Shown here: piece by piece, positions 21,446 through 59,818 of the stretch
Numbering within the stretch: the stretch's first letter is position 1
How the letters are laid out: each line of letters begins with the position of its first letter
Assembly: GCA_017506865.1 (NCBI GenBank)
Contig: JAFCMP010000548.1
Span: 186,001 to 250,000, forward strand
Direction of reading: 5' to 3'
Length of the DNA stretch: 64,000 bases
From: Tribonema minus
Taxonomy: Eukaryota; Sar; Xanthophyceae; Tribonematales; Tribonemataceae
Program-made: the position numbers and the translations under genes
Notes under the pieces: model-generated
Databases searched by the model: none
Seen by the model: the letters and a program-made list of their open reading frames with translations, nothing else
What the model was told of the DNA's origin: nothing

Positions 21446-21549
21446 CATGCGAGAGCAGCGCGTGGCGGTCGCCGGGGGAAATGAGCATGAGATGATCGTG
21501 TTTGTCAGTATGTGAAAGGCACTTTGGGCATTGGGCGTGACTGATTTTG

Positions 21550-22865: not shown

Positions 22866-22869
22866 AAAA

Positions 22870-23400
22870 AGTGCGAACAGGGGGGCTCACAACGGAAAGG
22901 GGGGGTCGCGCAGGCAGTGATCCTCGGCACTAAAAGCAAGTTGAAGGGGATCCATCAGATGCATTCATAGAAAATGCAACACCATTCTCTCCAGTTTGAT
23001 GTTGATGATCATCAACTGATCCCCAAAGAAGCTGCTTGTGAGCAGCTTAGCTGTGAGGGAGGATTCGTCAACTCTACATGACCAACTGCCAACAACTGCG
23101 ATGCTGCCAGTTGCGCACCTTAAACAGATTGATGAATGGGCACTGTTCATGGATCACATTATCTTAGTGAAAAAGTGTTTTGCTGACTATGAGAATGCAG
23201 AAGTGCGAACTGAGGGGGTTCGCTAGGGGGAAGGGCAGGTCGGCCTGTGCAGACAGTGATCCGGGGCACTTGAAGGAGGATTCGCAAGGGGAGAAAAGAT
23301 GCAGGGAATTGCGGCATAATTTCTTTGTGCTTCATCATCATTTGATAGTCCGCACGCTGGTGGCTTGTGAGCAGGCTAGCTAAAGGGAGGGTCAATCACC
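22870..23400. repeat. Two-copy tandem duplication, period about 330 bp
   Basis: The order gaacaggggggctc, gcaggcagtgatcctcggcac, aagttgaagggga, catcatcaactga, gcttgtgagcagcttagct in the first copy is repeated as gaactgagggggttc, gcagacagtgatccggggcac, cttgaaggaggat, catcatcatttga, gcttgtgagcaggctagct. Divergence is moderate. Confidence 0.65.
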
Positions 23401-24706
23401 TTCATGGTCAAATATTGGGTGTGGTGCACTAGTGCGGTAGTGTGGAGTTGCTAAACCGCTTGTTTTACTCGGTTCGTGCAAGACCACACGTTGCGCATGC
23501 TGTTTATTCCATAAACGCCAGAAGCTGTCGCGGGGGGCATTTAACAATAGCACGTCATTTGCAAAGATGAACCTCCAGCAAAAGCCTGCTCAAGGCCTCC
23601 ACACACACACACAGATCTGACGCAGCGCCCTTCCGTGATGGTGAAGCCAATGCCGCATGCCGCCACCGAGTGCGTGCAGGAACTCGTTGGCTTGGCATGG
23701 CACAGGCCGCGCAACTTCCACAAACTTCAACTTGCTGTTGCAGCACAGCTCAGCTCCCAAACCCCTCGAGCCCCCTTTCTCCAGCGTTCATCATTTCTGC
23801 CATGCTCGTCGTTGCAGTGCCGCCCTCAGCGCATCTGAACCCACAGCAGGCGCATTAATTGCATTGGTGTTGTAGAGTGAAAGGTCGAGCAGGTGCTCAG
23901 CTTGCGGTATTTCGCCCCCTTCTCATTTGCCTCACTAGCATACGTGTTCGCAAAATGTCGTACCTGCAACTACACGTTGGCTGCATTTGCACGAGTGGTG
24001 CTGCACTCGTACTTGCTGGTTTGTTGGCCTGTGTTGCACCAAGCGGCACGCTCAGCTAAAGGAGCATACGCAGCGTGTGGCACACTTGTGTGTTCATATG
24101 CATGCGCTATTCAAAGTCAAGCCTACCTTCGCTTTGTTGCACGACAGGCAGCAGTCCCACGATCTGGACCGCCATACTTCCGAAGTACACAACAGAGTAG
24201 AACACAACGGTATGCACAATTGTACACCATTGTCCTCCCCCTGACCTGTATCCAAACCGATAGTGGGGCAATACAACATACTTGCAGGGCTCGATCGCGT
24301 TTGATTCGCAACTTCAAGTTCAACAAGTTCCTGGAACAAGGCATGCTGGCACTCTTGCTTGCGCCGATTGCCCATGTAAAACATTGCGCACCTGGTGACC
24401 AGCGCCATGCGCAGAAGCTAAGGCAGCCAGCGACAGTAAGAAATAAGTCCATGCTGCACTACGCCGGAGCTCTGCGATACACTTGTCACATTCATCAGAG
24501 CTGAAAAACATCACATTCGTACGTCTATGGCAGTGGAGGCGCATGCACGGCGCCCTGCCCGTTCTAAGTAGCTGGCGCGCCGCGTCGCGCTGCGGCGCGA
24601 CACCGCTGCTGCGCGCACGCCGAAGCGGCGCCGCGCTGCTGCCGACGCGGCGGCCCGCTGCTGCTGCGCGCACGCCGCGGCAGCAGCAGCAGCGCGCCCG
24701 CAGCGC
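23401..24706. other. Downstream flank of the kinesin gene, nothing else recognised
   Basis: It probably contains the 3' untranslated region of the minus-strand kinesin gene at its right end. The part 24,540-24,706 is GC-rich with gcagcagcagcag runs. I identified no polyadenylation signal with confidence. Confidence 0.4.
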
Positions 24707-30036
<5,330 letters not shown>

Positions 30037-30649
30037 GCCTTGACAGCGGCTGTCAGCACTGCTGATGAGTTGAGTGTCTGTCGAAGCTGATTGGCGACAC
30101 GCTACCCCCTGCTCACGAGATTGAGAGCAGCGGTTCTCTCTCAAAAAGCTGTTGTTCAGCAGGCACGTTTGATTGAGGCTGTCCCGTGCTCAGCTGCGCT
30201 TAGTTGCACGGAAAGGGAGCGTGATACTGCCAGCGATCTGCTCCGGTTGGCTTTTTGCTGTTGTCAGTTAAGATCACCAACTTCAGTTTGCCGCCTAAAG
30301 TTCGCACACACCGAGCTGACGACGCCGCTGCTTTTGAAGAGTATCGATGTTGCCTCTCGGCCACTAAGGCACTCCGTCGCCTCACAGGCAGCGCCGCCGT
30401 GAAAAGCCTTAATTTTGCAACTGACAAGCGGCGCAGCATCGAGTGACCCCAGAAAACAGGTGCCCAAATGCAGCAACAGGCAGAGACCTAAAAAAGAGCA
30501 GTGGCGGCTGCCTGGCGGGGAGCTGGGGCATAATTGCGGCTGGATAAATGTCCGGTGCAGCGCAACCAGCAGCGAGAGCTGGGCTTGCCCGAGCTGCAGC
30601 TCACGGCGGTCTGCAGTAACAGAGCACCCCATCACGCGGGACCATCATC
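30037..30649. promoter_or_regulatory. Divergent (head-to-head) promoter region between kinesin-13 and the kinase gene
   Basis: The 613-bp spacer separates the inferred start codons of two oppositely oriented genes, so both promoters and 5' untranslated regions must lie here unless either gene has further upstream exons. I could not pick a TATA box or initiator with confidence. A bidirectional promoter is inferred from the layout only. Confidence 0.45.
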
Positions 30650-33600
30650 ATGGGAAACTCGCTGCCTAGCTCGCTGGATCTTGGAGGTCGCGTTGTCAAG
30701 GTTCGTGGCCTGCCATCGCCGCTTTGTTCATATAATTTCCGTGTGCCTTGATCTGTGCCAGTCATGACGTGATGAATGAGCAGGCCCCACCGGCTTTCAG
30801 GACCTTCTGTGCAGGATCTGATGGCCACATGGACGGGGATTGCGGTCAAATAATTTTAGCACGCGATTGAGTTCGATGCACAAGGTGGTGTTACGTGGGA
30901 CTGTGTTCGGATCCCTTTTCAATTCTGCTTGGGATGTTTCCAAGCCAACTTCACAATGCACACTGCTGCAGGCAAGGGAGTTGGGTGCACACAACAAGAT
31001 GCTGAAAATGGAAAGTCAGCAACGCAATCATTCCTCGCTCACCTAATCAGAATTGGATTCGCTGCACCACGCAATCATGTTGCACTTCATCATGACTGGC
31101 GATGCGTATGGACAAACCCTACAGCCAGAGTTGACTTATTGTACTCTCGAATATTCAAGGGCCGTTGCTTCCATACTGCTACTTATCTTCAACGGCATCT
31201 GCTTCAGCTGCAGCGAGGTGCACGCAGTGCGTAGACTGTACCACTCGGAGAGCAGTGTTCAGAGAGCAGTGTCCATTTAGTGATGCACGTGCCCCGGTCG
31301 ACGCTCTTAGGGTGTGCCTTGCAGGGCTAGAGCTGCGCGCAGCAATGGCCGTGAAAGTGTTGCAGCCGGTCGTCAAATATGTTTTTTGAGTGCAGCAGAA
31401 AGTCTTTCAGATGTGCATGCCACGGAGTATCACGTACCATCACGAGCATCAGTCATAAGTTCAAACCACTTGTTGTCGCTCAGACACTTCTCGCAGGGTT
31501 CGTCTGTCAGCACTGCTGACCTTGCACAGTTCAGAAGGCAGGGCAGTAAGTGGAGGGCAGTCGCAGCTGCTTCTCTTTTGCGCACAATCCGCGGCAAGCT
31601 GACGAACGTGTCATTAGTGCCTCGCACCTGCACCCGCTTGCGCGCTGCGCGCATGCCAATTTCACTCTGCGTAGGAGAGGGTAGGGTTGTGACTCATCGC
31701 ACAAAGTGCCGCTGCCGACTGTCGCCGTAGCCCGCTGGCGTCGCTGCCGCAAACTCGCAGTGCCACATAAGCAAGCAATGTCGCTACCGCGCGCTGCACA
31801 GATATCACTGCTTCTCGTCCCTCCGTCGCGGCCGCGCGCGTGCGTTCGTCGCATCCGCGCGGCAGCGCGCGCCTCAGATTGAAAGCACCAGATGGCGGAG
31901 AGCGGCTGCAGCTACGCGTACCAACAAGGGCATGGCCAAAGCTGGGCAAGGCATCTGCTGAGCACTGCTGCCAAAAAAGTGCACTGCCACGTGCACGCGC
32001 CATCATAGCGCACACTGCACCCATTTCACCGCTCCAGTGCGCACCCCACCCCGCGCGCGCGCCGCAGATCAAGTGCCAGATTGCGGAGGGCGGCTGCGGC
32101 CACGTGCAACTACGGCACGAACGAGCTGGGCAAAGAGATTGCTGAGCGCTGCTGCCAACAACTCGCACTACCATATGATGCGCGCACCCCCATGTCACTG
32201 CTCTCACCCCCCCTCCCCTGCGCCCGCACGCCACCCCCGCGCGCGCCGCAGATCAAGTGCCAGATCGCGGAGGGCGGCTGCGGCTACGTGTACAAGGGCG
32301 AGGACGAGCTGGGCAAGGAGTACGCGCTCAAGATTGTGCGCGTCGCGCGCGAGCGCGGCGGCGGGCCCGTGGTGGACGAGGAGGCAGCGGAGATGGCGTC
32401 GCTGGAGCAGACGGTCGTGAAGCGCCTGTGCCCGCACCCGAACATCGTGGAGGCGTTCGACTGCGGCACGACGTGGGAGGACTCAGAGGTATGTAGGGTA
32501 TCGATTATTTGAGGCCGGTAGGGGGCGGGTGATTGTGTGTGTTTGTACCGGAGGCGGTCGAGGCGTTCGACTGCGGCATGACGTGGGAGGACTCGGAGGT
32601 ACGAACATGGGTATCCATTTGAGGTCGGTGGCGGGTAGGTGGTTCTGCGCAGTCAGGACAGCCGCTCTGATGTCACTTTGTGGTAGGACCTGCTTACAGT
32701 ATGTTGATGCCAGCGCTGCGCTGTTAACACCAGCTCTGCAGCCTCCTGCAGTCAGCCAAACCTGCTGCCGCGCGGCGCAGCTTGCACCCTTTCACATACT
32801 GCCGCCTGCGCTGCAAGAGCTGCGGCGAGTGCCTCTGCCTACAAAACGACGGCGCCGCGCAACCGCCGCCGCTGCTGCTGCCGCCATCACAATTGCCTAC
32901 TGCGGCATGCTCTGCGTGCTCAGCGCTCAGCATGCTCCGCATCTGCTGCCGCTGCTGCCGCGTCGCGTGCACGCGCAGGTGCGCTACCACATCCTCTCGG
33001 AGTTCTGCCCGCGCAGCGTGCTCGGCATGCTGTCGGACGCGCGTCGCGGCCCCGCCGGCCACCTGCCGGAGCGCGACATCATGTGGATTTTGCGCGACAC
33101 GCTCATGGCGCTGCTCCACATGCACAGCCAGTCGCCGCCCATCGCGCACAGGTGAGGCGAGGGAGGGGAGAAATGGGGGCTGGAGGGGGGGGGGGGAGGG
33201 GCTCACAGGTACAGAACGTGTGAGAGGGGGAGGGGGGGGGGGGGGGGCAGCTGATGCAACGGACGGACCCAGGCGCGACGCGCGCGCTGGGGATATTGCC
33301 AGGATGGCGGAGGCCGCGGCGCATGGAGAGGGGACGCTGGGCAGTGCAGAGTGTACCCGCTGCAGGATTGATGTGTCAGGGAAGGGGGGAGGGGGCACAC
33401 CTGGCAGTCGCTGGCGAGGCATGTACGCGTGGGAAGCACCGCCTACCCCGCCCTCTGCTAGCATCAGCATGATGTCGCTACATAGCCATGTAGCTGTGCA
33501 CTGCCTTTGCTCGCTGGCGTAGAAGCACCAGCAGCCGCGTCGTGACGCACACGCGTGCCCCCCCCCCCCCACACACACACACACACACTCTCTCTACCCC

Positions 33601-36600
33601 CCCCCCGATCCACACGCCTCCCCCCCCCCCCCCCCCCCCCCCTCTCCAGGGACCTCAAGGTGGAGAACCTGCTCATCGGCGCGGACGGCCGCTGCAAGCT
33701 GTGCGACTTCGGCTCGTGCTCCGTGACGCACCGCGCGTTTGCGGGCGCGCGCGATGCCGCGCTCGCCAAGGAGGAGATCCGGCGAAGAACCACGCCCGCG
33801 TACCGCGCGCCGGAGCAGGTCGACCTGCACCTCGGCCACGTCGTCTCGGAGCGCGTCGACGTCTGGGCGCTCGGCGTGCTGCTCTTCAAGCTCGCGTTCG
33901 GCGCGACGCCGTTCGAGGACGCGCGCGGCGACGTGCAGAACCTCGGCATCCTCGGCGGCTTCCGCGCGGAGCGCGCCGTGCCGGCGGCGGCGGCGCACGC
34001 GTACTCGGAGGGCCTGATCGCGCTCATGGCGCAGTGCATGACGCTCGACCCTGCGGCGCGGCCGGGCGCCGCGCAGCTGCTGCGCGCGTGCGACGTCATG
34101 CGCGTCGCCGGCGCGCTGCCGTACTGGCCCTCCGTCGACGACCTGCCGAGCGGCGGTGGCGGTGCCATCAAGAGCAACGGCAGCGCCGCCGCGTTGCCTC
34201 GCAGCGCTGCGCCGCAGCCGTCCAGCGAGCCCGCGGCAGCGGCGGCGGCGGCGCCTGCATCGCCGGAGCGGTCGGCGGCGGCGGCGGCAGCGGCGACGAC
34301 GCCGTCGGCGGCGGCGGAGGCGGCTTCCGCGGAGAGCACGCCGCCGCCTACGTACCACCACAGCAGCAGCGTGGGCCTGTCGCGCACGACGGGGAGCCTG
34401 ATGGGGGGGTCGGGAGGCGTCGCGCTGAGCGCTTCCACGGGGGGCGCGGGGCACCGGCGCGGCGGGTCGGCGTCGGCCGCCACCAGCAGCAGGTGCGTTT
34501 CGTGCGGGCGGCGTCTGCGTGACTTGCGAATTAGGGATACGTGACGAATAGTCGTGCAGCGCTTGACGCGTTTGTCATGTATTTGGTGCTAGAACTGGGC
34601 TTGGCACAGTGTGCGGCAGCGGGCCCATTGCCACACAGTGGATGGGCTCCAAGCCAATGTGATATCATCAATATAGCCCTTTGACGTATAGTAGTCTTCT
34701 CATGTATGCATGTATACATGTGCTCTGCGCGCCCGCAGCCGTACCGCGCCGGCGCCGCTCGTCGTGACGCACCAGCCGTGGATGAACTGCATCAGGGAGG
34801 GCGTGCGGTCCAAGCCAGAGTACTGATACAACCAATACAACCCTTTGAAGTCATAGCAATCTCCTCATGTATGCACATGTACATGTGCGCTCTGCGCAGC
34901 CGCGCCGCGCCGGCGCCGCTGGTCGTGACGGGCCAGCCGTGGATGGAGTGGATCGGCGAGGGCGTGCGCTCCAAGCTGTACAAGATGATGGGCGGCGAGC
35001 AGCAGAAGCGGCTGTGGGTGCTCAAGGCGACGTCGCGCGCGCCGTGCGGGCCTAAGCCCAAGTACGTGCGCAAGATCGTCCTCGCGCTGTGGGACGGCGG
35101 CTTCACCATCGGCGGGTACTTTGAGCTGCTGCGGTGAGTGATAGTGACGCGGTTGCAATATCTACATGTAAAGAAGTACATATGTACACCAGAAGGGGCG
35201 CTCCGCGTGCGGGGGTTGTAGGGGGGTGAGGTGCGCAGCGCGGCGTTGCGGGTGTCGCTGTTGGCAATGGTGCGGTGAGCGGGGCGCGCAGTGGCGTCGT
35301 TCGAGCGCGTGGCTGGTGTAGCGTGTGCGTGCACGTCTGGGGGGCTGCGGCTTCCGTCTATGCGCGCGCTTGCTCTCTTCACGTCAAGATCATGCGGCAG
35401 TTGTCCCCGCTGCTGCCCGTGTTTGTGCACAGCAGGGGGCCGGCAGCTTTTCCGTCGATATGACGCATGGTCTGTTACTTTGGGGGATGTGGCGGACAGC
35501 GAGCAAAACCGATAGTCTCGTCGACCTGCAGGATGGAACGCCGCGCTTGTGGGCACTTTGAGGTGCTTGACTTTTGTGCTGTGCGCGTGAAAGTTTAGCA
35601 CGTTTTGTGTGGATGCCTGATACCGCGAGGTGATGGGAGGCGCAACACCTGCCGCGACTGTCTGTACATCTGCTGAGATTTTTTGAAGCGGAACGCTGTG
35701 TTTGTGCGCAACACGTAAAATTCAACTTGAACTTCAACATTGTGATGATGGCAGTTGCAATGCAGTGGGCGCTTGTTACAGTGCCGCAGTCAAATGAGCC
35801 ACCTCTTCTTGCGGCATTTGCAACATCATCCCTGTTCAACAACCACTTATAAGCACATGACTGCTCGATATCATGGTGTCGCTCAAGTGTTCACTACTCC
35901 ATGCCGCAGCATTGACAATTCTCTTGAAGTACGTGAGTTCGACATGTGATGTGGCGGCCGCGCGCGCAGGTTCCGACCGCTGGCCGAGAGCCCCGTTGTC
36001 GCCGCCAAGGCCCTCATCACGCTGCTTAAGGCGCTGCAGCAGGGGCCGGCGGCGTGCCTCATGGAGTGCTGCAGCTACGCCGACATGGTGCAGGAGATAG
36101 GGGAGATGTGGGCGGGGGCGGCGGAGGGGGGGGGAGGGGGGGGGGTTATGGGGACCGTCGGCCCAGGGGGGGAGTACGGCTCCGATCACGCAGTGGCGAA
36201 CGACGCGGCGTTTTCCGTGCTCATCGTGCGCTTCTCGACGGCGCTTGTGCAGAAGGTGGGTGGTGCAGGCGTTTCGGTCAATTGACGCGCACTTTGAGAG
36301 CTGCCGTAATGGAGTACGGCTCCGATCACGCGGTGGCAAACGACGCGGCGTTCTCGGTGCTCATCTTGCGCTTTTCGACGGCGCTGGTGCAGAAGGCAGG
36401 CGGTGCAGGTGTTTCGGTTGGTCAACGCGCACAGTGAGAGTCGCCGTGCAGAAGCGCGCGCAGGGGATGCTGGCGCGCAGCGGAGAGCGCAAGGGTGCCG
36501 CGGTAGTGGGGGGAGGGGGGCATGACGCCACCGGCCATGCGGTGGCATGCACGGAGCATCTCGATGCTCGCTGTACGCTCTTAGGGTGTGCTGCGCATGG

Positions 36601-39600
36601 GTCAAGGGGGGAAAGGGGGGGGGTGCAGTGCTTCTGATGGCTACACCCCGGCACCTCAAGGACAAGGCATGCGGTGTGGGTACATGACATGTGGTTGCGA
36701 TACCGCTGCTGGAACGGACCTGTTCGATCGCTGTTTACACACAGTGCTCTGACAACTTGCCAGACACCCTTCCGAAGCTGTCTTACGGGCACGGCCTACA
36801 CTCTCACACATGTCCCATCCTCCCTCCCCCCCCCCCCCCCCCCCCCCATCCCCCCTAAAGGTGCGCTTCAACCAGCACCACCCCGAGTACGGCGCGCTCT
36901 TCGGGACCACAGTCAGCGACCGCGACAGCGCATTCGCGGCGGCGGCGGCGGACGGCGGCGGGAGCGGCGGCGGCGGCGGCAGCGAGCGCGCGCAGTCCGT
37001 CGTGCGCCGCCTCCTGTCGCTGCAGGCGTGCGTCCTCGGCGTGCTGCGCCAGGCGTTCCTCGTCCTCGCGGCGAGCCCGATAGAGGCGCAGATCGTCACG
37101 CGCGCGGCGCTGCTGCCGCTCGTCGACGAGGCCTTCGCGACGTACACGGCGGCGCGGCGCCTGCTGCTGAGCTTCGGGCCGCCGCCGCGCGCGCCCGCGC
37201 CGCCGGGCGCCGCGCCCGCGCTCTTCGAGCTCGCCAGCGAGTTCGAGGCGCAGGCGGCGGCGCTGCGCCAGTTCTGCGCGCGCGCGGACGAGGTGGAGGA
37301 GGTGCGCGTCATGGGCCGCACGCCCGCCATCTCCGCCGTCAGCCTCTTTGACCAGCAGCAGCAGCCGGCGGCGGCGGCGGCGGATGCAGCGGGGGGGCGC
37401 GGCGGGGGGCGCGCCGGGAGGGGATTTGGCGGCGGCGGCGGCGCGCGCTCGGGGCACCAGCGGCAGTTCTCGACGGAGCCGGCGGTGGCGGGCCGCGCGA
37501 GCAGCAAGCTGGAGGCGCTGCGGACGCTGCGGCATGAGGAGAAGGTGCGGCAGCTGCGAATGTTGTTAAGGAACAGCCTGTTGAGGTCGTGTTGTTGAAG
37601 CTGTTTGCTTTGTGGTTTGTGCGGCAAGCTGATGGCGCGCTTCGCTGCGCCAGCTGCTGCTGCGGCGCACTTCGCTGCGCCGGCGCAGCAGCTCTGCGCC
37701 CAATGCGTGTCCGCCACCAACGGATGGTGTCACTCATATTTGCATACCCTCTCTGCACGGCGTGGCTATGACAGCATTCGTGATTGCGCGGAGACAGACT
37801 GCCGGTGCCCATGCGGCATCACTGCACCAACCTGAGTCACCGGGCGGCTCGTCCCGTCGCGCGCGCCGCAGGTGCTGCAGCGGTTTGCGAGCACCGTCGC
37901 CGGCGGCGGCGGCGGCGCGCTCGCGGGCTCGCTGGACGCCAGCAGCGGCAGCGCTCAGGCATGAATGTAAAACATCTGCTGATGAAACTAAAACACGAAT
38001 ATGCTGATTTGTAGGTAATTTTACTCTATGATCTACTTCAAGTAAACGTAATCCACGCGCGCCGCCGCAGGTGCTGCAGCGGTTCGCGAGCACCGTCGCC
38101 GGCGGCGGCGGCGCGTTCGCGGGCTCGCTGGACGCCAGCAGCGGCAGCGCTCAGGAGGACCTCAACGACGACGACTCGGAGGGCGATGCGGACGAGATGC
38201 GGGAGCTGGAAGCAGACCCCCATGGGACTCACTCGGGGGGCGACGGCGTGCCGGTGTGGGCGCAGCTGCCGAGGACGCCGCACGAGGTGACTGATGGACG
38301 GGGCGGTTGTTGTGTTGATGGTGCGGGGTGTGCGCGTGTGAGCTTTTTACATATTGTGCTGAATGCGCCGTGTGGGGGGGCGCGGGGGGGGGGGGGGGGG
38401 GGGGGGAATCACTGGGATTTGTCAATGCGCCGTGTGGTTGGGGGGGGGGGGGAGGAAGAGCCCTCCAGGGCTTGTTAAATGTCTCGTGTGCCTTGGGGGT
38501 GGGGGTGAGCTCTTGTTGAATGAGCCGTGTGGCTGGGGGGGGGGGGGGGGGGGGAGCCCCAGGATCTTTCAATGTGCGTCGTGTGGCGGGGGGTGGCAGT
38601 GGGCCTCAGGATTTGTTGGACTCGCGCGGCTGGGGGGGGGGGGGGGATGACGGGACGGGCGGCGCCTGCGAGCGGCTCACGCGGGGGTGTAGATCAGGGT
38701 TGAGGCGAGGGCAGTTTTTCTCATGACAGGTAGGCGGGGGCAAGCTGAGGCGTGCAGCCTCAGCGTGGGCCGTGGCTCATCGAGCACGCACACATCGAGC
38801 TCCGCCGCAGGGACTGATACTGCCGTTGCTGTTGGACGCTGACGCAGCTCATCACGTCTTGAAGTTGAATCCTGCCTGGGTTCTCTGGTTGCCCACCTCT
38901 GGTACGGCGGTGTGCTATACGCTCTCAGACATGCAGTTCTGTTGACTGTCGAGGACTCCCCACTCCCCCCCCCCCATTGCGCCCTGTTTGCCGCAGCAGC
39001 ACCCAACTCCAACGAGCTTCCGCAGCCCCGCGGGCTACGCCGTGTCGCCGCCGGCGTCGAAAGCGGTGGACGACGAGCCGCTCATCTCGACGAGCGACGG
39101 GAGCACGCGAAGCGGCGGCGGCGGCGGCGCGGCGCGCAGCAGCAGCGCGCCACCGCCGCAGGAGCAGCAGGCAGCGCAGGCGGCGCCGCGGTCCAAGCAT
39201 AAGGCGAGTGGGCGCTCCGGCGCTGCGACGCGCTGCGTGGCGCTGCCGCCGGTGACTTGTGGCGACGCGCAGCACGGCGCGCTGCGGCATCGGGCGCCAG
39301 ACCATGCGCGTGCATATGTAGTGTCGGCAAAGCATCATGCACCTGCAGAGCGTAGGCGATCCATCGTGAACAGGTCATGAGCCTCGTTCGCCGCAGCGCC
39401 GTGTGACAGCTGCCACGAGTACAGCAGGAGAGCGCGTGTCGCATGGGAGCCTGCAGTGGAAACCTGCTGGCTGGTGCATTACTTAGTGACGGTGGAGGCT
39501 GCACGCTCTGAGCGAGTCGTCAGTCTTCGCCGGAGGTACGGTCGGATGCTGGTGAGCCGGCGTGCGCGAGACGCTTGCAGGCGCCGCGTGACGCGGAAGG

Positions 39601-42600
39601 TCAGGGTGAAAGTTTGGGATTCCACGAACGGCCTGACACGATGACAATTCAGAGCCCCGTGTCAAATGCAGGGTGTGTCAGGTCTGAAACATCGACGGCG
39701 AGATTTGGCAGCACGACGCATCTCTCATCAAAGAGCAGAAGTATAAAAATCCTGCCGCTGTAACTGATTGCGAGAAGTGCTGCCGCGGTGCGCGCGCGCA
39801 GGCTGTCGCAAACCTGCTCGGGGACTACGATTCGGAGCCGCCGCCGCAGGTGCCGCCGATGCCGTCGCCGCTGCAGCAGCAGGCGCCTTCCGCGCTGCCG
39901 CCGCAGACGCCGTCCCAACACCAGCAGGCGCCATCACAACCTCAGCAGCAGCAGCAGCAGCATGGCGGTTTGAGCGCGAGCGGCAGGCTGCGCGCGGCGG
40001 ACGGCGCGCCGCCGCCGCCGCTGCCTCCGCGGCGCCCATCTGTAGATAATAATGCGGGCGGCGGCGGCGGTAGCAGCAGCAGTGGCAGCGCCACCAACAC
40101 GCCGCCGCCGCCGCTCCCGCCGCGCGCAACGAGGGGCGCGCGCAGTCCTTTCTGGCGTCGCAGCAGGCCGCGCAACACCAGCAGCAGCAGCAGCAGCAGG
40201 CGGTGGCCGCACTACCGCCGCTGTTCCTGCCGATGCCGGTGCTGCCGATGCCGCCGCCGGTGGTCGCGGCGGCGCCGGGCATGGCGCCGGCCGCGAATGC
40301 GGCGGCGGCGGCGCCTGCCGTAAGCATCGCGGCGATGCGGCAAGCGGCGAAGGACGAGGACAGGCTCATACGTGAGCGCAAGCACCAGCAGCTCCAGGCG
40401 CAGCTGCTGGCGCAGCAGCAGAGGCTGCTGCAGCAACAACAGCAGCAGCAGCAGGCGGCAGCGGCGACAGCGGCGGCGGCCGCGCAGCAACAGGCGGCGG
40501 TCGCCGCTGCCGCGGCCGCGGCGCAGCAGTCGCCGACAGTCGCGCTGCTGCAGCAGGCGGCAGCAGCAGCGGCGGCGGGGCAGGCGTTGAGAGCGCAGCC
40601 TGTGCCCTTGGCTCTCCCGGTGCAATCACCGCAGGTGCGCACATACTTCAAATCGCAGCCGTAGTAGAGCGTGAGCATCACGTGCGCGCATGCTGTAGCC
40701 ATGTTGAACACAAATACTGGCAGTTGAAGATGCGAAATGAGGCTGTTGTGCTGCACTGTGCAGGGCTGGCATGCACAGCACTGCTACGTCAAGCAACCGC
40801 TGCGTGCGCCTGTGCGACCATCACGCATGCCCCCTGAAACCATCACAGGCGGGCATAAGCTCACAACTGGGCAACTTTGCTGGCCCTGTCAGTCACTGCC
40901 TCAATCACCTTTGCGTTGCTTTAGCATGGGTCATTCAGAAGCCGCCCCTCCGCCTTGCACCGCTGGACGCTCGGGGATCCGATGCTTGCGCCGCCACTCA
41001 ATGCCGCCGCCGCCGCCGCTGCAGCCTCAACGTCACTGCACGCAAACTCCGCTGGCCACTTTTGGCAGTCAACAATGACTCAACGCGTATGCAGCTCGAG
41101 CGGTAAACCCCCTAGCGCCCCCCCCCTCCCTCCCCTCCCTCATAGGCGCGAACGCCGCAACTGACGCCGCAGGGCGCCGCCGCAGCGGCGGGCGGCGGCG
41201 GCGCGACGCCAAAGCCGCCGCTCGCCGCGCCGCCGCCGCCGCAGCAGGCGTGGCCGCAGCAGCAGCGCTACGCGCAGGCCAAGTTTGAGTTCACGGCGAA
41301 GAGCCCCGAGCAGCTGTCGTTCAAGGCGGGCGAGTTCATCCGCCTGCGGCGCGACACGATCAACAGCAAGGGGTGGGGGCTGGGCGAGATCCGCGGGAAG
41401 ATGGGCTGGTTCCCGGGGGACTTTGTGCGTATTATACCCCCGGGGCAGGTCCCGCCAGGTGCGCGCGCACGACTCGTCGAAGCGCGAGTCGATCTCGTCC
41501 ACGCACCACAGCCTCGAACTGAAACTGCGCAGGCTTTCCAAGGGTGCAAAGCCGCTCGCAAAGCACGAGCGGGTCTAAGCTGAACCGTTGAGCTCGTAAA
41601 AATAGTTGTTTGATTCCGGCGCTCGTGCAAAAACCCATCAAGTGTGGGCGTGACGCGTTGTGCCAATCGTGTAGGAGTTCTGGCTGCACGGGCCGTGCTC
41701 ACATGGCGGCAGCTGCAGCGGCTGCGTGTACAGCTGGCCCTGTCCGCCCCGCGCCGTAGCCACAGCGGTGACTCGCTTTGATGGGTCGAGCTGGGCGAAA
41801 AACTGCTGCTTTGTCGATGCGTGTGTTGGCGTGGTTGCGACCAGTGGGTGGAGGGCAAATGCCGGTGTTGCGCCGCAGCGCGCGGCAGTGCGTCGTCGCC
41901 GTAGACAATCGCAGCTGGGTGCTCCGGACAAGGCGCGGTGCCTTCGTTCTTGAGAAATTTTTAATCTGGGACCTCACCTTTGTTCTTTTGATGCTAAACC
42001 CCATGCTCAGCGCGGGCAAACCAACGAGTTGCTCTTTCAATGTTTGGTGATGAAAGCGCCACGCTGCGCACTGATGATAATTTTCAGAAAGCGACACGCT
42101 GCTCACGGTGTGCTGCCGGCGCTTACAAGTGCTGAGACGGCCGGCATTCAAAGTGTCTTCGCAGGATCGTCTATAGAGCTGGCTGTCTGTGGTGAGCGTA
42201 GAATTGCTGGCTCCTGAGGGTGATTCTCGTGCAGCGTTCATGCACCCTTGTGAGCGTGTTCATGTCAAAGAATTGTTGCTAGTGTTGTGTTGGTCAGGAC
42301 GTACGTCTGCTGTCAGTCCCGTCGATCGTCTGCACGCGCACGTTCACAAGCCCACATCCCCTGTGTCAGGTCCCTCCGCGTCCGCAGACGCGAGTACCGC
42401 TGCCAACGTGAACCGCAGCTGAACCGCACCTGTACCTTCCCTGAACTGCACTTGCTCTGCGCGTACCACCGCCGCCCTGAACCGCAGCTGAACCGCACAT
42501 GTACCATTCCTGAACTGCATCTGCACTGCGCGTGAACCCCCCCACGCCGCAGGCTTGGACGGCACGGCGACGGTCGGCCGCGGCCGCGAGCCGCAGCATC

Positions 42601-45600
42601 AGCACGCCGGCGCAGCGCAGCAGCAGCAGCAGCAGATGCCGCCGGTTGACAATCTCGTCGGCAGCGCTCAGCAGGCGGGCGTGGAGTTCGCGCGCGACGA
42701 GGCGGTGCAGCCTGAGCACCAGTTCGCCATGCAGATGGCGCGCGCGCAGCCGTGGAAGGAGCGGTGAGCGCTGCCGCAGTGGCGCCGGGCGGTGTGCGTA
42801 CGCCCTTCTGAAGTGCATGTTCCGATTGTAATCGACCTCATTCGGATTGATCCAGACGTTGTTCCGTGCGAACCTGTCGCGCCTGGCCGTACGCAGCCGT
42901 GTTCCGTGCTCATAGCAACTACACTTGAATGTCCCATCGGGGGGCTCTGATATATGGCGGCGGTTTAGAAAGTGTGCTCTGACAGCGCTCTTTTTTGTTG
43001 GCTGGTTGTGCCGCACCCGGAGTTCAGCTGGGACCTGCCGACTTGGCTGCGCACTCGCACTCCTGCTTGTTGCTTTGAAGTATCATACCGTTTTGTCAGA
43101 CGCGCGTTCGGCAAGGCAGTGCTCATCACACGTGAGCATCGACCCTGGCGGCAGACCTTCAGAATGAGGATCGGAGCCGTCTTTGCATGGCTATGAATTA
43201 CTAATGTGGAGTGACCGACATCCTGCACTCTGCCGCTGATGCGCTTCTGGTACAGTTTTACGCTACATGACCGCAATGATGCGTCCAGTACAGGCCCACA
43301 CTTCACTCCGCGTTGTTGACCGCCGCTGCCGACGCGCATGCCCCCCCCCCCCCCCCCCGTACTGAGCGCTGCTGTCTCTGACCTTCGCCGCGCTGCGAGG
43401 CATTCGAGACGCACCCTCGCACGTGCACGCCGCGCTCGCGCCGCCATTATTCGTGCATGCCTGCTGCCTCATTGAGCGCTGCCTTCGACCTTCGACCTTG
43501 TGCTGGCACAGCAGGACGTGACAGCGCACTTCTGATGGTGCCATGATGAGACCTGCCTAGAGTCTTCGCCAATTCTTTTCGGAGTGTGTTTTTTGAGGTC
43601 CTTGGTGTCGCTGCTGCCGCCCCCCCCCCCCCCCCCCCCGTCGCAGGCTGACGCCAGGCAAGCGGCCGTGTTGAGCGCTGCCACTGACTGCTTTTGTCGC
43701 ACTGTCACGTGCACTGCTGCGCCCCCCCCCCCCCCCCCCCCCCCGTTCGCAGGCTGACGCCGGGCGGCAAGCAGGCGTACATGGACCTGGTGAGCTTCTT
43801 CAGCGCGTCGGGGCTCATGATGAGCTTTGACGACCTGCAGCTGCGCGCCGTCATCGGCAGCGGCGCGTTCGCCACCGTGTTCCGCGCCATCTACAGGTGC
43901 GTCCGCGCGCTGCTGCTGCCGCCGCCGCCCCTGCTGTTGCTGCTGCTGCACGGCGCTGCGAGGCTCGAGTGCCTCGGGCGGCAGGCAGCGCGAATGCAGT
44001 CACAGCCACTCTCTGCACTATAGTGACACTGCACATGCGGAGAGCAGGCAGTGCGCTTTGCTGACTGACACACACGCACGGCTTCTTCTTGCGGTGCTTT
44101 GCCACAAGCCTGCGCACCCACCCACCATTTTATGAGCACACAAACCCGAAGGGGGGGGGGGGGGGGGGGGATTCAGAAGAGCGTGTGTCGAGGCGGGCGC
44201 ATAATCGTGATGCGTGAGTACAGTGCAGAACTTCAAGTCCAACTTCAAGACAAGAAGTTCGCCGTCAAGAAGCTCATGGGCTGCGCTTTGCCTTCCGCAG
44301 CAGCGCCGCGCCGCAGACGCAATCGGACGCAATGCGCAACGCATACATGTATATTGTTGCCTGACCAGTGCTTACGCGCCCTTCCCTCCTCCGCTTCCGC
44401 CTTTCTGCCTGCGTCGCGGCGACATATATATCGTTGCCTGACCAGTTCTCACGGGCCCTCCCTCCCCCGCTTCCGCCTTTTCCCGTGCGGCGCGGGGCGT
44501 ACGCGGGAGGCGCGACGTCGCCGTGAAGCAGCTCATGGGCGGCGATCTGCACTTCACTCCACAACCTCAAGATTGCAACACCTTCCGCAGCGCCGCTCCG
44601 CAGATGCAGTCGGCCTGCAGCACGCAATACATACATACATGTCATTGCCCGACCAGTTCTCACGCCCCCCCCCCCCCCCCCCCCCTTCATTCCGCCTGCC
44701 GTTCCGCGTCGCGCAGGAAGCGCGACGTCGCCGTGAAGAAGCTCATGGGCGGCGGCGGCGGGCCCATGGAGAAGACACTGCGCGACTTCAAGACGGAGGC
44801 GGCGCTGCTCAGCAGGCTGCGCCACCGCAACATCATCGCGCCGATAGGCGCGACCGCGGACCCCGTGACTATCGTCATGGAGTACTGCAGCCGCGGCAAC
44901 CTCATGATGCTGCTCAACGACACGGCGATCGACCTGCCGTGGCCGCGGCGGCTGCGCATGTGCGTGGACGTCGCCGCGGGCATGCGCTACCTGCACACGC
45001 AGAACCCCGTCATCATCCACCGCGACCTCAAGAGCCTCAACGTCCTCGTGGACGACAACTGGGTCAGCAAGGTGAGGTTGGGGTTGAGGTTAGGGTTCCA
45101 ATCAAGGGTTAGGGTTACCACTAGGTTAGGGTTAGGGTTGAGTTTAGGGCTAGGGGCAACGTCCGCGACAACAACTGGGTCAGCAAGGTGAAGATGGGGG
45201 CTAGGGTTAGACTAGAGTTGGGATTAGGGTTAGGGTTGATGTCCTCATGGACGACAACCGGGTCAGCAAGGCGAGGCTGGGGTTAGGGTTGAGATTAGGG
45301 TTAGCGTTAGGGTTACTGTCACGGTTGGGGGGTAGCATCAACGTCCTCGTTGACGACAACTGGGTCAGCAAGGTGAGGTTGGGGGCCGGGGTTAGGGTTA
45401 GGATTACGGCTAGCGTTAGGGTTACTGTCACGGTTGGGGGGTAGCATCAACGTCCTCGTTGACGACAAGTGGGTCAGCAAGGTGAGGGTAGGGTTGGGGC
45501 TGGGGTCAGGGTTAGGGTTAGGGGTATTGACAACGTCCACATCGATGACAAGTGGGTCAAGGTGAGGCCGCGCTCGTGCGCGCGCGCGGGAGCGGTGAGA

Positions 45601-47321
45601 GAGGTGGTGCGAGTTTGTTGGTGCACGGTTCGGGTTAGAGTCAGTGTCATGGGTAGGTATAGGTATGCAGCGACAGCGCGCTGTACGCGTGCATCGGGCC
45701 TGCCTGATACGGCGAGGGTTGAGTGCATGGGTTGGTTGCGCTGTTCCACGGGCAATTTGCCTCAGCTTGCGAGCAGGGTCAGTGATGCCGCGTATCCCTC
45801 TGGTGAGGCACGCCCTGAACCAGTTGCTTGAGCACTAGAACGCATCCGTGAGAAGGGTCCGCAAGCGGCAAATACTGGGTCGCGTGGAATTTGAATATTG
45901 AACAACAGCACGTATATCCGTATATCCCTGACGGCCGTGCCCCCCCCCCCCCCCTGCCGCTGCGCGCGCATTCGCCATGCAGGTTACCGACTTCGGCCTG
46001 AGCCGTTTCAAGGCGACTTCCGAGTCAGAGAAGATGACGGGCCAGGCCGGCACCTACCACTGGATGAGCCGTGAGTATCCTGCCTACTTTGCACGCATAT
46101 CGAAGTATGGGCATCGCGCTGCACTGGGACCCGTGGTGCCTCACTCTAGGCCGCGCCCATCGCATGTGCATGAAGTCCCCGAAAACGTGGCATTGCGTTG
46201 TTTCGCGCATATCTGAGATGTCTTGTGTACTGCACATGCCTCAAGCGTGCCTCGCGCACCGCGCCTGCAGTTGAGCATACATCATACATACATAGCCATG
46301 CGCGTGCACAGCTGAACGCCGACTGCTGTTGCTGTCGACGATGCGACGGGGAGCCAGCATCACAGCACAAAAATAATTCAAATGCGCCTAGCAAATGCGA
46401 CGCTTTGCGTGCATCTGGGCTGTGTGTCCGTTTGCACAACGCCTGAAGCGTTTCTCTCGCCGCTGCCGCACCGTCCCCCCGTACGCACGTGCAGCCGAAG
46501 TTATCAACTCTCAGCACTACACAGAGAAGGCAGATGTGTTCAGCTTTGGCATCATCATGTGGGAGGTAAGGCAGCATTGTGGTGGCCGGTCGTCTGAGTC
46601 GGAGTCGGAGTCAGACCACCAGCAGCTACAGCGCTCCCACTCTGCCAGCCATGCGTCGCACACGTTTATGCATGCATACATGGTGTGCCAGCGCATCGGC
46701 GTGCTCTTAGAGATGAGCTGCTTTTCCGTTGCATCACTCTGCACTCTTGACTTGATGCACTGCGTCATTCGTGCGGGAGCGCTTTGTAGTATATGGCAAC
46801 TCCCTGAGCTGCTGCCACCTTTGTGGTGCATGCGCGGCCGTGAAACCTCACGGCTACAGGCCCCTTTCAAAGGGTTTATCTTGCGCATGAACAGCAGTCA
46901 CGGCCAATGGCTGGTGCAGAAACACTATCACTCCCCTGACAACAAGCAACGGCATCAGGTTCTAGCAGCGTTGCTCAAAGCAATACCACCAGTTCAGCGC
47001 CAGCTCAACGTGTACAGACCCACAACAGCCTTTAGGTCTCGCTGCAACATCACCTCTCTGACTGAACGCGATCACCCACCCCTCAACTCCCTCCCCTTCC
47101 CCCCCCCTGCCCCCCAGGTGTACACGCGCAGCATCCCGTACGACGGCATGCAGCCCGTGCAGGTCGTCGCGGCGGTGCTCGGGCGCCGCGAGCGCCCGCG
47201 CATCCCCGCCACCTGCCCCCCCATCCTCGCCGCGCTGATCCAGCAGTGCTGGTCGCACGACCCCGCGGTGCGCCCCGCATTCGACGAGATACACGCGCGC
47301 CTCGAGGCCATGCCGTCATGA
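30650..47321 (+). CDS. NAK/AAK-type kinase, ANTH, SH3 and RAF-like kinase in one predicted protein
   Basis: I infer 17 exons: 30650-30700, 32252-32488, 32979-33151, 33650-34492, 34900-35133, 35970-36255, 36861-37544, 38071-38286, 38997-39203, 39802-40634, 41146-41458, 42553-42763, 43753-43896, 44717-45071, 45983-46070, 46495-46565 and 47118-47321, about 1,715 residues. Every junction keeps phase; the intron after exon 9 uses a GC donor. One apparent frameshift lies in exon 10 near 40,100. Order: MGNSLPSS myristoylation-type start, NAK kinase, Ala-rich spacer, ANTH, Pro/Gln-rich region, SH3, TKL kinase. NAK kinases phosphorylate clathrin adaptors and ANTH binds PI(4,5)P2, so a role at the endocytic membrane is inferred. 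The main doubt is whether exons 1-12 and 13-17 are one gene. Exon 12 has a stop codon just past its donor, so a shorter NAK-ANTH-SH3 product ending at 42,767 is possible. Confidence 0.7.
31878..32137 (+). repeat. Two upstream copies of the 5' part of kinase exon 2
   Basis: Copy 1 (31,878-31,953) follows gcgcgcctcag and copy 2 (32,068-32,137) follows gcgcgccgcag. Both begin like the real exon at 32,252 (atcaagtgccagatcgcgga) and extend to about gagctgggcaa. Both copies carry indels that break the frame (ggccacgtgcaactacggc), and each is followed by a gctgctgcca word. They are likely unused duplicate acceptors. Confidence 0.8.
32551..32600 (+). repeat. Downstream copy of the 3' edge of kinase exon 2 with its donor
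   Basis: gtcgaggcgttcgactgcgg to actcggag|gtacga repeats the exon end (gtggaggcgttcgactgcgg to actcagag|gtatgt at 32,488) about 110 bp into the intron. Confidence 0.8.
34670..34818 (+). repeat. Tandem duplicate of the acceptor region and 5' part of kinase exon 5
   Basis: The segment with ctcatgtatgcatgtatac, a gcccgcag acceptor and ccgtaccgcgccggcgccg repeats, about 160 bp upstream, the true acceptor and exon start at 34,900. The copy reads APLVVTHQPWMNCI against APLVVTGQPWMEWI and meets a stop (tga) just after KPEY. It is a decayed exon or a possible poison exon. Confidence 0.8.
34900..37544 (+). other. Domain: ANTH (AP180/CALM-like) lipid-binding domain (exons 5-7)
   Basis: Exon 5 contains KATSRAPCGPKPKY (about residues 477-490). 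This fits the ANTH phosphoinositide-binding pattern K-A-T-x6-P-K-x-K-H/Y and continues with VRKIVLALW. Exon 6 gives VVAAKALITLLKALQQG, matching the ANTH helix that reads like WxVxxKxLIxxHxLxxxG. Exon 7 gives FNQHHPEYGALF and a long helical segment (VVRRLLSLQACVLGVLRQAF) at the place of the second ANTH half. A Gly-rich insert in exon 6 (about 36,100-36,170) and another in exon 7 lengthen loops. ANTH proteins recruit clathrin to PI(4,5)P2 membranes. This domain with a NAK kinase in the same chain is unusual. Confidence 0.75.
36312..36395 (+). repeat. Copy of the 3' part of kinase exon 6 with a lost donor
   Basis: An 84-bp stretch starting gagtacggctccgatcacgc repeats exon 6 positions 36,172-36,255 with a 140-bp period and few differences, including the following intron words. 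At the exon end the real copy has aag|gtgggt, whereas this copy has aag|gcaggc, so the GT is gone. Confidence 0.85.
37872..37959 (+). repeat. Upstream copy of the 5' part of kinase exon 8 with its acceptor
   Basis: gcgcgccgcag|gtgctgcagcggtttgcg to gcagcggcagcgctcagg duplicates the first 90 bases of exon 8 (38,071 onward) about 200 bp upstream. A stop (tga) follows at once, so splicing to it would truncate the protein. Confidence 0.82.
38071..40634 (+). other. Linker: acidic then Pro/Gln/Ala-rich region (exons 8-10), with an apparent frameshift
   Basis: Exon 8 encodes an acidic stretch (EDLNDDDSEGDADEM). Exon 9 is Gly/Ser/Gln-rich and ends KHK at a GC donor (aag|gcgagt). Exon 10 starts AVANLLGDYDSEPPPQ and becomes a Pro- and poly-Gln-rich region with possible SH3-binding PPPPLPPR sequences. 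Near 40,100 the frame used by the first part (PPPPLPPRA) must switch by one base to reach the second part (RAQSFLASQQ to PVQSPQ), which joins in phase to exon 11. A base error or indel in the GC repeat, or a tiny undetected intron, would explain it. Confidence 0.6.
41146..41458 (+). other. Domain: SH3 (exon 11)
   Basis: After an Ala/Pro/Gln-rich lead the exon reads YAQAKFEFTAKSPEQLSF, KAGEFIRL, then GWGLGEIRGKMGWFPGDFV. This covers the SH3 hallmarks in order: ALYDF-like start, LSF with the KGD-like turn, the W of the ligand groove, G-x-x-G-x-F-P and the final Y/F-V. The second groove Trp of many SH3 domains (WW) is a single W here. The exon ends in phase 1 at ccgccag|gtgcgc and joins exon 12 (GLDGTATVG). 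SH3 domains bind Pro-rich peptides, and exon 10 of the same protein offers candidates. Confidence 0.85.
43343..43752 (+). repeat. Repeated C-homopolymer units before kinase exon 13
   Basis: There are three C tracts of about 17-20 bases or more (near 43,340-43,357, 43,620-43,639 and 43,722-43,744). The second is followed by gtcgcag|gctgacgccaggcaa, a short copy of the true gttcgcag|gctgacgccgggcgg at 43,753. Words like ttgagcgctgcc follow each unit. Confidence 0.75.
44252..44552 (+). repeat. Two upstream copies of the 5' edge of kinase exon 14
   Basis: aagttcgccgtcaagaagct near 44,258 and gcgacgtcgccgtgaagcag near 44,513 both resemble the real exon start (gcgacgtcgccgtgaagaag near 44,722). 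Between them the phrase ttgcctgaccagt with pyrimidine-rich text recurs near 44,355 and 44,435, and a ttgcccgaccagt variant near 44,645 before the real acceptor. The whole intron is therefore a three-fold tandem series. Confidence 0.75.
45072..45565 (+). repeat. Five copies of the 3' edge of kinase exon 14 plus donor, alternating with TTAGGG-like DNA
   Basis: The exon end gacgacaactgggtcagcaag|gtgagg (45,071) is repeated in the intron with ends near 45,187 (gtgaag), 45,270 (gcgagg), 45,371 (gtgagg), 45,482 (gtgagg) and 45,561 (gtgagg). Between the copies lie 40-70 bp of gggttaggg-type sequence. Two copies also retain cgtcctcgttgacgacaa. Each copy carries a usable-looking splice donor. Confidence 0.88.
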
Positions 47322-47324
47322 CGC

Positions 47325-47412
47325 GCTGCTGCTGCCGCCGCCGCTGCCGCCACTGTCGCCGCCGCTGCCGCCACTGTCGCCGCCACTGCCGCCACCGCCG
47401 CTGCTGCTGCTG
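47325..47412 (+). repeat. Short GCC/ACTGTC minisatellite just after the kinase stop codon
   Basis: Units of ctgccgccactgtcgccgc repeat three to four times directly downstream of the stop, so they probably lie in the 3' untranslated region. Confidence 0.7.
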
Positions 47413-50084
47413 CGAAGCGGCGCCTCGCGCTGGCTGGCGCCGCCGCAGCGCCAAGATTGGTCTGCCGGCGGCGGCCGCCGCCGCCACCTTGCTCCCGCTG
47501 CAGCCGCCACGGCGCCAGACCGCGCGCAGCACCGCTGCGTCTGATGCAGGGGCTGCGCGCCGTGCGGGGGCGGTGCTGGCGGCGACTGCCGTAGCGGGTT
47601 TACGACGCACCGCTCAGCGCCGTCGCTGCTGCCGCGGCACGGCAGCGGCGCACACCCCGCGTGTCGCCCCCTGCGTTTTGTCCTCCTCCCCCCGTCCCCC
47701 CCCCCCCCCCCGTCTTCGAGGATGCTTAGGTCTCACGTCTCTCGAATTTTTTTCGATGCGCGTTCGCTCGGGTGGGGCTGATGCTGGGGGGCTTGGCCAG
47801 CGCAATGCAAAATCCAGCGGCACTGCTTAGACTAGCTGCGTGTGGTGCCCTAGGAGGGGCGGGTCCCGGTGCTGCGTCACCGGGCTGCAAGTTGAACTTG
47901 AAGTACGCGCTGGCCGCCTGCGCGCTTCGGGCTGCGCCAGTAGTATGTAGGCCTCAACATTCCAACAGCTCAATTTGAAATGGTGGGAAAGACATTGGAT
48001 TTCGGCACTGCGAGTGTCTCTGTGCTGTGTGTGGAGATGCATGCTTGTCTCTTCAGTGCCGTCTGGAGATGCGTGCGCACCAATCGCTGTCTGACACGCC
48101 CTCAAGGCATGGCGCATTTCCTCATGCATTGCCATTTCACGGCAACATCTCATTCACATACCATGCTGCGGGAGGGGCATTTGATCTTCTGTCTTGATCA
48201 AGTGTTTAGAGTATCGACAGCCAAGCACATAATGGCATCTGCAGCTAACAGTGCGTTACCCGATGCAGTGGAAACAGTGCAGAGGCGTCATGCTGTAATG
48301 ATGGCAGTAAACGTGTAGTGAAAAATGCAAAGGTAATTGTTGACTGTGCCCCAACCATCGCCGCTTGCACCAGAAACAGTGCCTGCAACAAAGAGCGCAG
48401 GTTAACCGCCATGCATTCCCTTCAGTTGGTGCTACCCCTGCCACGACATGAACGCAGTCGTTGCCGACCACGCCATCGGTCGCGGCCACATGAAGCGTGT
48501 GAAGCCATCCCGCTGAACCTGACTTGAAGTTTGTGTCGCGTCTACCGGCTGTCGTGCTGCCGCTGGATGGCACTGGTGGAATTCGCAAATGCGCACATGT
48601 GCGCTGGGGGGCAGTGCCCTGTCATGAGCTGAGACAGACCGGGCAATGACTGTGAATTGTTGGCCCTCGAGTGCTGAGACGGAGGCCAGTGGCGCTTGGC
48701 CATGCGGTGGGCCAGCACCTGTGCGCTCATCACCGCATGACCGTGGGCAGAAAGTAGTTTTGCAACGGTTTGTGTCCGTGCAACGTGAGCAAGTTGCAGT
48801 TGGTGATGCTTGAAAAATTGTTGATTTACACTGTCAAACCTGAGGCTTCTTCAGGTTCGATGTCATGGGGTGAGAGTTGTACTTTGCATACCGCGGGATA
48901 TGCAATGTTGCATCAACCTTGAAGTTTAATCTCTTTACGGTCAGTAGCCTTGTGTCAAGAAGTTGACATTATGTTGCGGTCTGAGCTTACATGTGCAGCT
49001 CAGATTTGTAATGCGACAAAGCCTACTGCATGTCAAAGTTCATCCGAATTTACAACCGACTACCCAACTTCCCAAGTATCTTGCAGCACTGTAACCACCT
49101 CAGGTCACTCTCACGCTGGCAACTGAAGTGGATGCGCAACTGACAGTTGCCCATTGCAACTGATGCTTGAGGCCAACAAGTCAAGAGCAAATTTCACACA
49201 TCCGGTGTGCAAAGTAGCTCACTCACTTGCCACGCGATTGACACCCACAGCAGTAACTCATGTGTTGAGGTTCCTCTCTTGAAACGATTCATTTTGTGCT
49301 GTGTGCGCATGAAAAATTTGGAAGACAGCCACCCATGGAGGGCAGGGGGCCTAAAAATGCCGCGTTGGTGTACCGAATGGGGCAACAATGAAAAGGTGGA
49401 GCAATGTTTACCTCCAATTGGCACAGTCATGCCGCTGGTGATAACTTCAGGTACCTGGATCTGAAATAATCCTGCCACAATTCACCTTCTGTTACGATTG
49501 ACATACATTATTTACATCAAATTAATCATCTCATGTATGACACACATCTCGATGACATAACCCAAACCAGCAGCATGACACAATATACAACCACAGCAAT
49601 TTTAAGCAAGCATCACACACAGGTGTTAGAGTTAACTTGATGAATAAGGGTGCGCAAAACCAACTGTGCACACATGCTGGGTTCCCGACAGCTGCTTCAA
49701 CATGCCACAGCAGCACAGGAAAGATTTGACAGAAAAGCCTGTGTATACCATCATGACTCTCAAAATACATAATTTTGTGGTTCATTACTGATGCTTAAGA
49801 CTCAAGTTATGGGAGTACCAAGTGGTTGGAGGGAGCCCTGTCTAGTACCCCACCTTCTACATACAGTCGCTTGCTGGCGAGCAAGGTGCTCGAGCTCTGG
49901 TACAACTATAATGCAAAAGCTCGCAAGTGCTCACATACTGGGCGGGTGGCTGCAGAAGCTGCAGCAGCGGAGCGGGATGCTGCGCTTGGCGCCATGACAC
50001 CCCCCTCCCACCCCACCCTCCCCAACTAAAGGCGCCAATGTAAAGGTGAAACAATCGGCCAGCATCGCGCTGCTGCTCACTCCC
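47413..50084. other. Convergent intergenic region, no gene recognised
   Basis: It lies between the ends of two convergent genes. The first 300 bp are GC-rich and end in a C tract (47,699-47,711). The remainder is average in composition with short frames only. A minus frame near 49,194-49,478 is open for 94 codons without any family resemblance. I cannot support a gene. Confidence 0.5.

Positions 50085-59754: not shown

Positions 59755-59818
<64 letters not shown>

Follow-up and report, generated by a model that had tools for sequence, protein, structure and literature searches.

Introduction

AAK1 and GAK are kinases that act on adaptors, and Ark1/Prk1 are likewise NAK-type kinases. Members of this family have a long low-complexity tail with proline motifs, a feature shared with the protein described here. 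We know of no ANTH domain, SH3 domain or second kinase domain in GAK, AAK1, BIKE, STK16 or Ark1/Prk1. Nor, to our knowledge, is there a kinase domain in the ANTH proteins Sla2/HIP1R and AP180/CALM. Among the RAF-like TKL kinases, which include CTR1, ZAK and TAK1, those of the MLK type also carry SH3. In yeast, the SH3 domain of Abp1 is described as recruiting Ark1/Prk1, with the result that the Sla1/Pan1 complex is disassembled (PMC10011730).

Protist proteins with two kinase domains have been described. The main text on the Phytophthora infestans kinome lists dual-kinase proteins, one of them bearing a WW domain and others being transmembrane proteins, and contains 0 occurrences of 'ENTH' and 'SH3' (PMC3019232). 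As far as that text describes them, the presence of two kinase domains in one protist protein is common to the oomycete examples and to the one reported here. Among the open-access full-text matches listed, none was seen to describe a fusion between an ANTH domain and a kinase, a scope distinct from that of protein databases.

Here, we analyse a gene of Tribonema minus that lies within a 64,000-nucleotide stretch of contig JAFCMP010000548.1 (the window; unmarked positions refer to it). Our overall best explanation, to which we give a probability of roughly 0.6, is that this one gene encodes a coat-docked protein composed of a NAK kinase, an ANTH domain, a linker with PPLPPR motifs, an SH3 domain and a RAF-like kinase, with two kinase outputs. 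All of the parts are of known kinds; the novelty is their combination.

Results

Gene model and splicing

The gene occupies positions 30650–47321 of the plus strand, and all 17 exons and 16 junctions could be located. The original prediction had drawn the same 17-exon model from the letters of the DNA, and inspection of every exon end and phase shows that it splices as claimed. Splice phases are consistent at each junction with the sole exception of a frame break within exon 10, where a local frameshift had indeed been proposed. Fifteen introns are of the GT-AG type and one, after exon 9, is GC-AG. No stop interrupts exons 1–9, and from the latter half of exon 10 a single open frame extends over exons 11–17 to the stop, which ends at 47321. 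Apart from the break in exon 10, the roughly 1,700 codons contain neither a stop nor a shift of frame, and the predicted protein is about 1,700 residues long. The features are as follows, with reference to a paralogue in the same genome that is described below.

30650..30700, +, exon 1: encodes MGNSLPSSLDLGGRVVK; the paralogue exon reads MGNSVPSSLTIGHQTIK and has the same phase-0 junction
32252..32488, +, exon 2: NAK kinase N-lobe with EGG loop and YALK; Pfam and structure matches
32979..33151, +, exon 3: middle of the NAK kinase, HRD at its end; Pfam
33650..34492, +, exon 4: NAK kinase C-lobe (DLK, DFG, APE), then an Ala/Ser-rich linker; Pfam
34900..35133, +, exon 5: start of the ANTH domain; Pfam and solved-structure match
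35024..35065, +, ANTH lysine motif KATSRAPCGPKPKY (K-x9-K-x-K-Y): read from the sequence; KTTSRSACGPKPKY in the paralogue
35970..36255, +, exon 6: middle of the ANTH domain; ANTH profile at 5.4e-5 for this exon alone
36861..37544, +, exon 7: C-terminal half of the ANTH domain and linker; Pfam
38071..38286, +, exon 8: linker; weakly supported, by the splice model only, and aligns poorly to the paralogue
39000..39203, +, exon 9: linker with the GC donor; weakly supported, by the splice model
39802..40634, +, exon 10: Pro/Gln/Ala-rich linker; frame break between about 40126 and 40160
40015..40032, +, PPLPPR motif 1 (SH3-ligand type): kept in the paralogue
40108..40125, +, PPLPPR motif 2: kept in the paralogue
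41146..41458, +, exon 11: SH3 domain; Pfam
42553..42763, +, exon 12: linker plus the initial half of the pre-kinase segment (PEHQFAMQMARAQPWKER); the paralogue counterpart lies in the SH3 exon
43753..43896, +, exon 13: remaining half of the pre-kinase segment (LTPGGKQA...) plus the glycine-rich loop, GSGAFATVF
44717..45071, +, exon 14: RAF-like kinase from AVKK through HRDLKSLN; Pfam and structure match
45983..46070, +, exon 15: RAF-like kinase activation segment, DFGLS; structure match
46495..46565, +, exon 16: RAF-like kinase, PEVINSQHYTEKADVFSFG; structure match
47118..47321, +, exon 17: C-lobe of the RAF-like kinase, and the stop codon; structure match

Domain identities

Four modules had been proposed, and in a Pfam scan of the spliced exons 1–7 and 11–17 all four pass the curated cut-offs. 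The matches are Pkinase (2.7e-38), ANTH (2.6e-11; 43.5 bits against a cut-off of 21.5, covering positions 6–250 of the 276 in the profile), SH3_2 (3.2e-9, with SH3_1 at 3.5e-7) and, for the second kinase, PK_Tyr_Ser-Thr (5e-66). In the paralogue, the ANTH domain scores 42.3 bits and SH3_1 matches at 9.3e-11.

Comparison with solved structures places the first kinase among the NAK kinases, which it resembles in its kinase domain. The best 13 of 2039 distinct matches are GAK, BIKE, AAK1 and STK16 (3.2e-41 to 9.8e-24), and the next among the best 60 of 2039, OSR1, is far weaker at 1.2e-16. The catalytic motifs YALK, HRDLK and DFG are intact, and the activation segment aligns well to that of GAK. 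The genome contains another NAK-like kinase, on contig C23, which is apparently ordinary: its one open frame matches only kinase profiles in Pfam, and none of the 9 matches of the genome ANTH search lies on that contig.

The ANTH domain is nearest to that of Sla2 among solved structures, followed by HIP1R, and it has in common with Sla2/HIP1R and AP180/CALM the arrangement K-x9-K-x-K-Y, which we take to be the consensus for PI(4,5)P2-binding lysines. In the window protein it reads K-x9-K-P-K-Y, a lysine motif of the putative PI(4,5)P2-binding type, as had been noted. Other features of these families are missing. Unlike AP180/CALM, the protein has no clathrin-box, DPF, DPW, NPF or FxDxF pattern; with patterns that we presume to represent clathrin-, AP2- and EH-binding peptides, zero matches to these five were found in either copy (2/2 spliced proteins scanned). 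The pattern W-x-x-[FW] matches once in the window protein, as W-x-x-W at residue 449, ahead of the ANTH core, and has no match in the paralogue. Clathrin binding by the window protein is at most putative. Unlike Sla2/HIP1R, it gives no Pfam match to the I/LWEQ actin-binding domain in exons 1–7 and 11–17, and its C-terminus is a kinase; a search of the genome's contigs for I/LWEQ, run without a positive control, also found none. An ANTH family search of the same genome gave nothing and missed the known ANTH exons too, and so is not informative on absence. A search for relatives of the ANTH pair gave 77 pattern matches among viral contigs and 25 among prokaryotic ones, none of which was confirmed, as expected for a eukaryotic gene.

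The second kinase resembles the RAF-like TKL kinases, and its catalytic motifs AVKK, HRDLK and DFG are intact. Arabidopsis CTR1 is the best match among solved structures (3.5e-62), and the best 60 of 2672 matches are led by CTR1, ZAK, Roco4, MLK1 and TAK1, with an EGFR-titled chain third and tyrosine kinases after. The earlier description of this domain as a MAP3K-like TKL kinase thus stands as a statement of sequence similarity, CTR1 being nearest and the next relatives mostly TKL. Unlike in TKL kinases, SH3 and kinase are here fused to NAK and ANTH, and no further CTR1-type domain is matched by Pfam in exons 1–7 and 11–17. At the other end of the protein, the N-terminus MGNSLP has no Ser/Thr at position 6, presumably a requirement of the myristoylation consensus, and a myristoylation site there is doubtful.

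A second copy of the gene

The 158 Mb genome (554 contigs) was searched with three spliced pieces of the window gene, and the best candidates were scored. Among these, one contig region besides the window matches all three pieces. This paralogue lies on the minus strand of contig C509, at positions 155111–144031, and comprises 12 exons, separated by GT-AG introns throughout, that encode 1,672 residues in an unbroken frame. It has the same order as the window copy: the MGNS start, NAK, ANTH, two PPLPPR motifs, SH3, a PWKD-RLTPGGKQA bridge, the RAF-like kinase and the stop. That a diverged second copy repeats the order of the modules suggests an arrangement beyond chance. Window introns 2, 3, 11 and, by eye, 7 are missing from the paralogue (12 versus 17 exons). 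Its NAK exon continues into MEWVKSRW, and the corresponding MEW segment of the window gene is found in exon 5, together with ANTH.

Identity between the copies is 68% for NAK, 60% for ANTH, 63% for SH3, 64% for the bridge and 83% for the RAF-like domain, and the codon-based dN/dS ratios are 0.36, 0.73, 0.32, 0.35 and 0.24, respectively. All five stretches compared thus have dN/dS below 1 (0.24–0.73; no significance test was applied). The ratios are probably too high, with dS underestimated, because G or C occupies 86–96% of third positions. On both measures, conservation is greatest in the RAF-like domain, and the ANTH ratio is the weakest sign of constraint among the five.

The paralogue NAK domain has HRDLR and NFG in place of HRDLK and DFG in the window copy. 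A kinase that lacks the aspartate of DFG is expected to have no activity, and the paralogue NAK is therefore predicted to be inactive. Given these two substitutions, NAK catalysis may be dispensable in some copies.

One protein or two

We consider it very probable, from the domain matches, the closest solved relatives and the paralogue of the same order, that NAK, ANTH, SH3 and the RAF-like kinase belong to one polypeptide, as originally predicted. Alternatively, two adjacent genes, one encoding a NAK-ANTH kinase and the other an SH3-RAF-like kinase, might have been wrongly chained. Some observations would fit such an arrangement. Exons 8–10, which connect ANTH to SH3, are of low complexity, and exons 8 and 9, poorly alignable to the paralogue, are the least supported part of the model; the ANTH-to-SH3 linker is, on this alignment, the weakest link of the one-gene case. 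A Met in the PPLPPR exon of the paralogue could also, in principle, start a second protein. Nevertheless, both copies have the modules in the same order and on the same strand, with neighbouring exons 0.2–1.6 kb apart. In the paralogue, moreover, the SH3 domain and the pre-kinase PWKD segment are encoded by a single exon, and its spliced model contains zero Met from the SH3 core to the glycine loop of the second kinase (six in the window copy), which argues for one gene. So does the way in which its NAK exon continues into MEWVKSRW, the window counterpart of which shares exon 5 with ANTH.

The flanks point in the same direction. We compared positions 20001–30600 and 47322–62000 of the window with the flanks of the paralogue (5.9 kb upstream, 3 kb downstream) and found no similarity by nucleotide or translated comparison. 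Within the sensitivity of this search, the homologous unit therefore runs from MGNS to the kinase stop in both copies, which again favours a single gene over two neighbours. Synteny of the paralogue flanks with the window, considered in the same comparison, was not found.

Taken with the points above, this makes an erroneous joining of two genes highly improbable. The original prediction would have given way to separate genes if a promoter and first exon were present between 42.8 and 43.7 kb, or if the two kinases were always separate in relatives. The paralogue speaks against the former, since its SH3 and PWKD segments share an exon and are Met-free up to the glycine loop; a hidden alternative first exon may exist. 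As for the latter, the one relative found, the C509 copy in the same genome, has both kinases together.

The frame break in exon 10

We enumerated phase-compatible GT-AG introns able to connect the two reading frames in exon 10. Several weak combinations were obtained, of which 39850–40163 (314 nt) has the top score. As a cause of the break this intron is disfavoured, because splicing it out would cost the protein its two PPLPPR motifs, and these are conserved in the paralogue. The counterpart of exon 10 in the paralogue has no frame break. Given the conservation of PPLPPR, we therefore interpret the break as either an error of assembly or an allelic difference; it lies in repetitive GC-rich sequence, where an assembly error is plausible.

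It could be argued that the window copy is decaying and that the full protein is made only by the C509 copy. The exon 10 break would be a symptom, and the copies of exon ends found in 7/16 introns (see below) could mislead splicing. However, the gene is otherwise unbroken over about 1,700 codons, both of its kinases keep their catalytic motifs while the NAK substitutions sit in the C509 copy, and the dN/dS ratio of the pair stays under 1 in 5/5 stretches. With the break itself open to explanation as an assembly error, decay of the window copy seems improbable.

Copies of exon ends within introns

Seven of the 16 window introns (1, 2, 4, 6, 7, 13 and 14) contain, close by, a degenerate duplicate of the end of the neighbouring exon, together with its splice site. 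These copies, which lie within 32068–45560, have alignment scores of 66–101, against a highest control of 36, with the gene's other introns serving as controls. In the paralogue, 1/11 introns has such a copy (score 58; highest control 22). By a second method, 8/11 local duplications of the window gene extend across an exon edge, where 3.3 are expected by shifting and 16/5000 shifts reach 8; in the paralogue, the same test gives 0/1.

One conceivable origin of these copies, intron gain, was rejected. By eye, the copy in intron 2 holds intron sequence beyond the splice site, and therefore it post-dates intron 2. Exon-end duplication is possibly a general way of intron growth in this genome. Local duplications number 33 in 20 kb around the clathrin heavy chain gene, 4 in 20 kb around the paralogue and 43 in the whole 64 kb window. 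In the clathrin region, duplications overlap, by eye, an end of 7/10 profile-matched stretches, profile ends not being exon ends. At 45033–45560, the last ~35 bases of exon 14 appear by eye to be repeated several times in intron 14, interleaved with TTAGGG telomere-like repeats; CCCTAA-like repeats also occur at 18404–18517.

Discussion

How might such a protein act? We propose that the ANTH domain would dock it onto PI(4,5)P2-rich membrane at forming coated vesicles, where the NAK domain could phosphorylate coat or adaptor proteins, in the manner of Ark1/Prk1, which promote disassembly of the yeast coat, and of AAK1/GAK, which act on adaptors. The SH3 domain might bind PPLPPR in cis, as a clamp released by a partner, or else recruit proline-rich partners, and the RAF-like kinase would constitute a second output at the same membrane site. 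A role in the regulation of endocytic coats is probable. Autoregulation through SH3 and PPLPPR is possible, at somewhat less than even odds, and the idea that the RAF-like domain may feed a MAP-kinase cascade is rather unlikely. The genome contains the clathrin heavy chain, which a profile search matched in 10 stretches of a single locus, and mu-type adaptor subunits (15 matches on four contigs).

It is also conceivable that the protein is mainly a membrane-recruited RAF-like signalling kinase, in which NAK and ANTH serve as docking or allosteric modules and not as an endocytic enzyme. The greater conservation of the RAF-like module relative to NAK (83% and a dN/dS of 0.24, versus 68% and 0.36) is in keeping with this, as are the NFG and HRDLR of the paralogue NAK and the want, in both copies, of clathrin-box, DPF, DPW, NPF and FxDxF motifs. 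Against it, the window copy retains all of its NAK motifs and an activation segment that aligns well to GAK, and we regard a mainly signalling role as unlikely. A coat-cycle kinase that is docked by ANTH and gated by SH3 is favoured instead, because equivalents of three components of the yeast loop (NAK, a Sla2-like ANTH, and SH3 with two ligand motifs) are present in cis.

More tentatively, and with the odds against it, the two copies may represent an undescribed protein class, in which a coat-cycle kinase, a PI(4,5)P2 anchor, an SH3 domain and a RAF-like kinase are united in one chain. Such a class would amount to a fusion of the feedback loop that yeast builds from separate proteins (Sla2-type ANTH, Abp1 SH3, Ark1/Prk1), with an in-cis SH3/PPLPPR switch and with duplicates of split roles, one having an active NAK and the other a NAK pseudokinase, the RAF-like output being active in both. 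Provided that the protein is made as a single chain, coat recruitment, coat-cycle phosphorylation and RAF-like signalling are linked in cis; the fusion of genes in nature is evidence for the joint working of the functions so combined. The pair of copies, one with NAK intact and one with NAK apparently dead, also offers a clean comparison for the contribution of NAK catalysis.

Finally, several features elsewhere in the window and genome were observed. A kinesin motor-like open frame, named by eye, lies on the minus strand at 29020–30189; since it runs away from the start of the window gene, the two may share a promoter region. Two minisatellites (2279–2541 and 10316–10809), eight kilobases apart, consist of related units of 110–117 bases with, by eye, a GTGGTGCTGCGCTAATCGCCG core. 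On two other contigs, C334 and C112, which may be nuclear, there are rbcL-like fragments, each with a stop inside the match. They look by eye to be of the red type, as judged by residue signatures that we assume to be diagnostic, and they are probably plastid-derived insertions.
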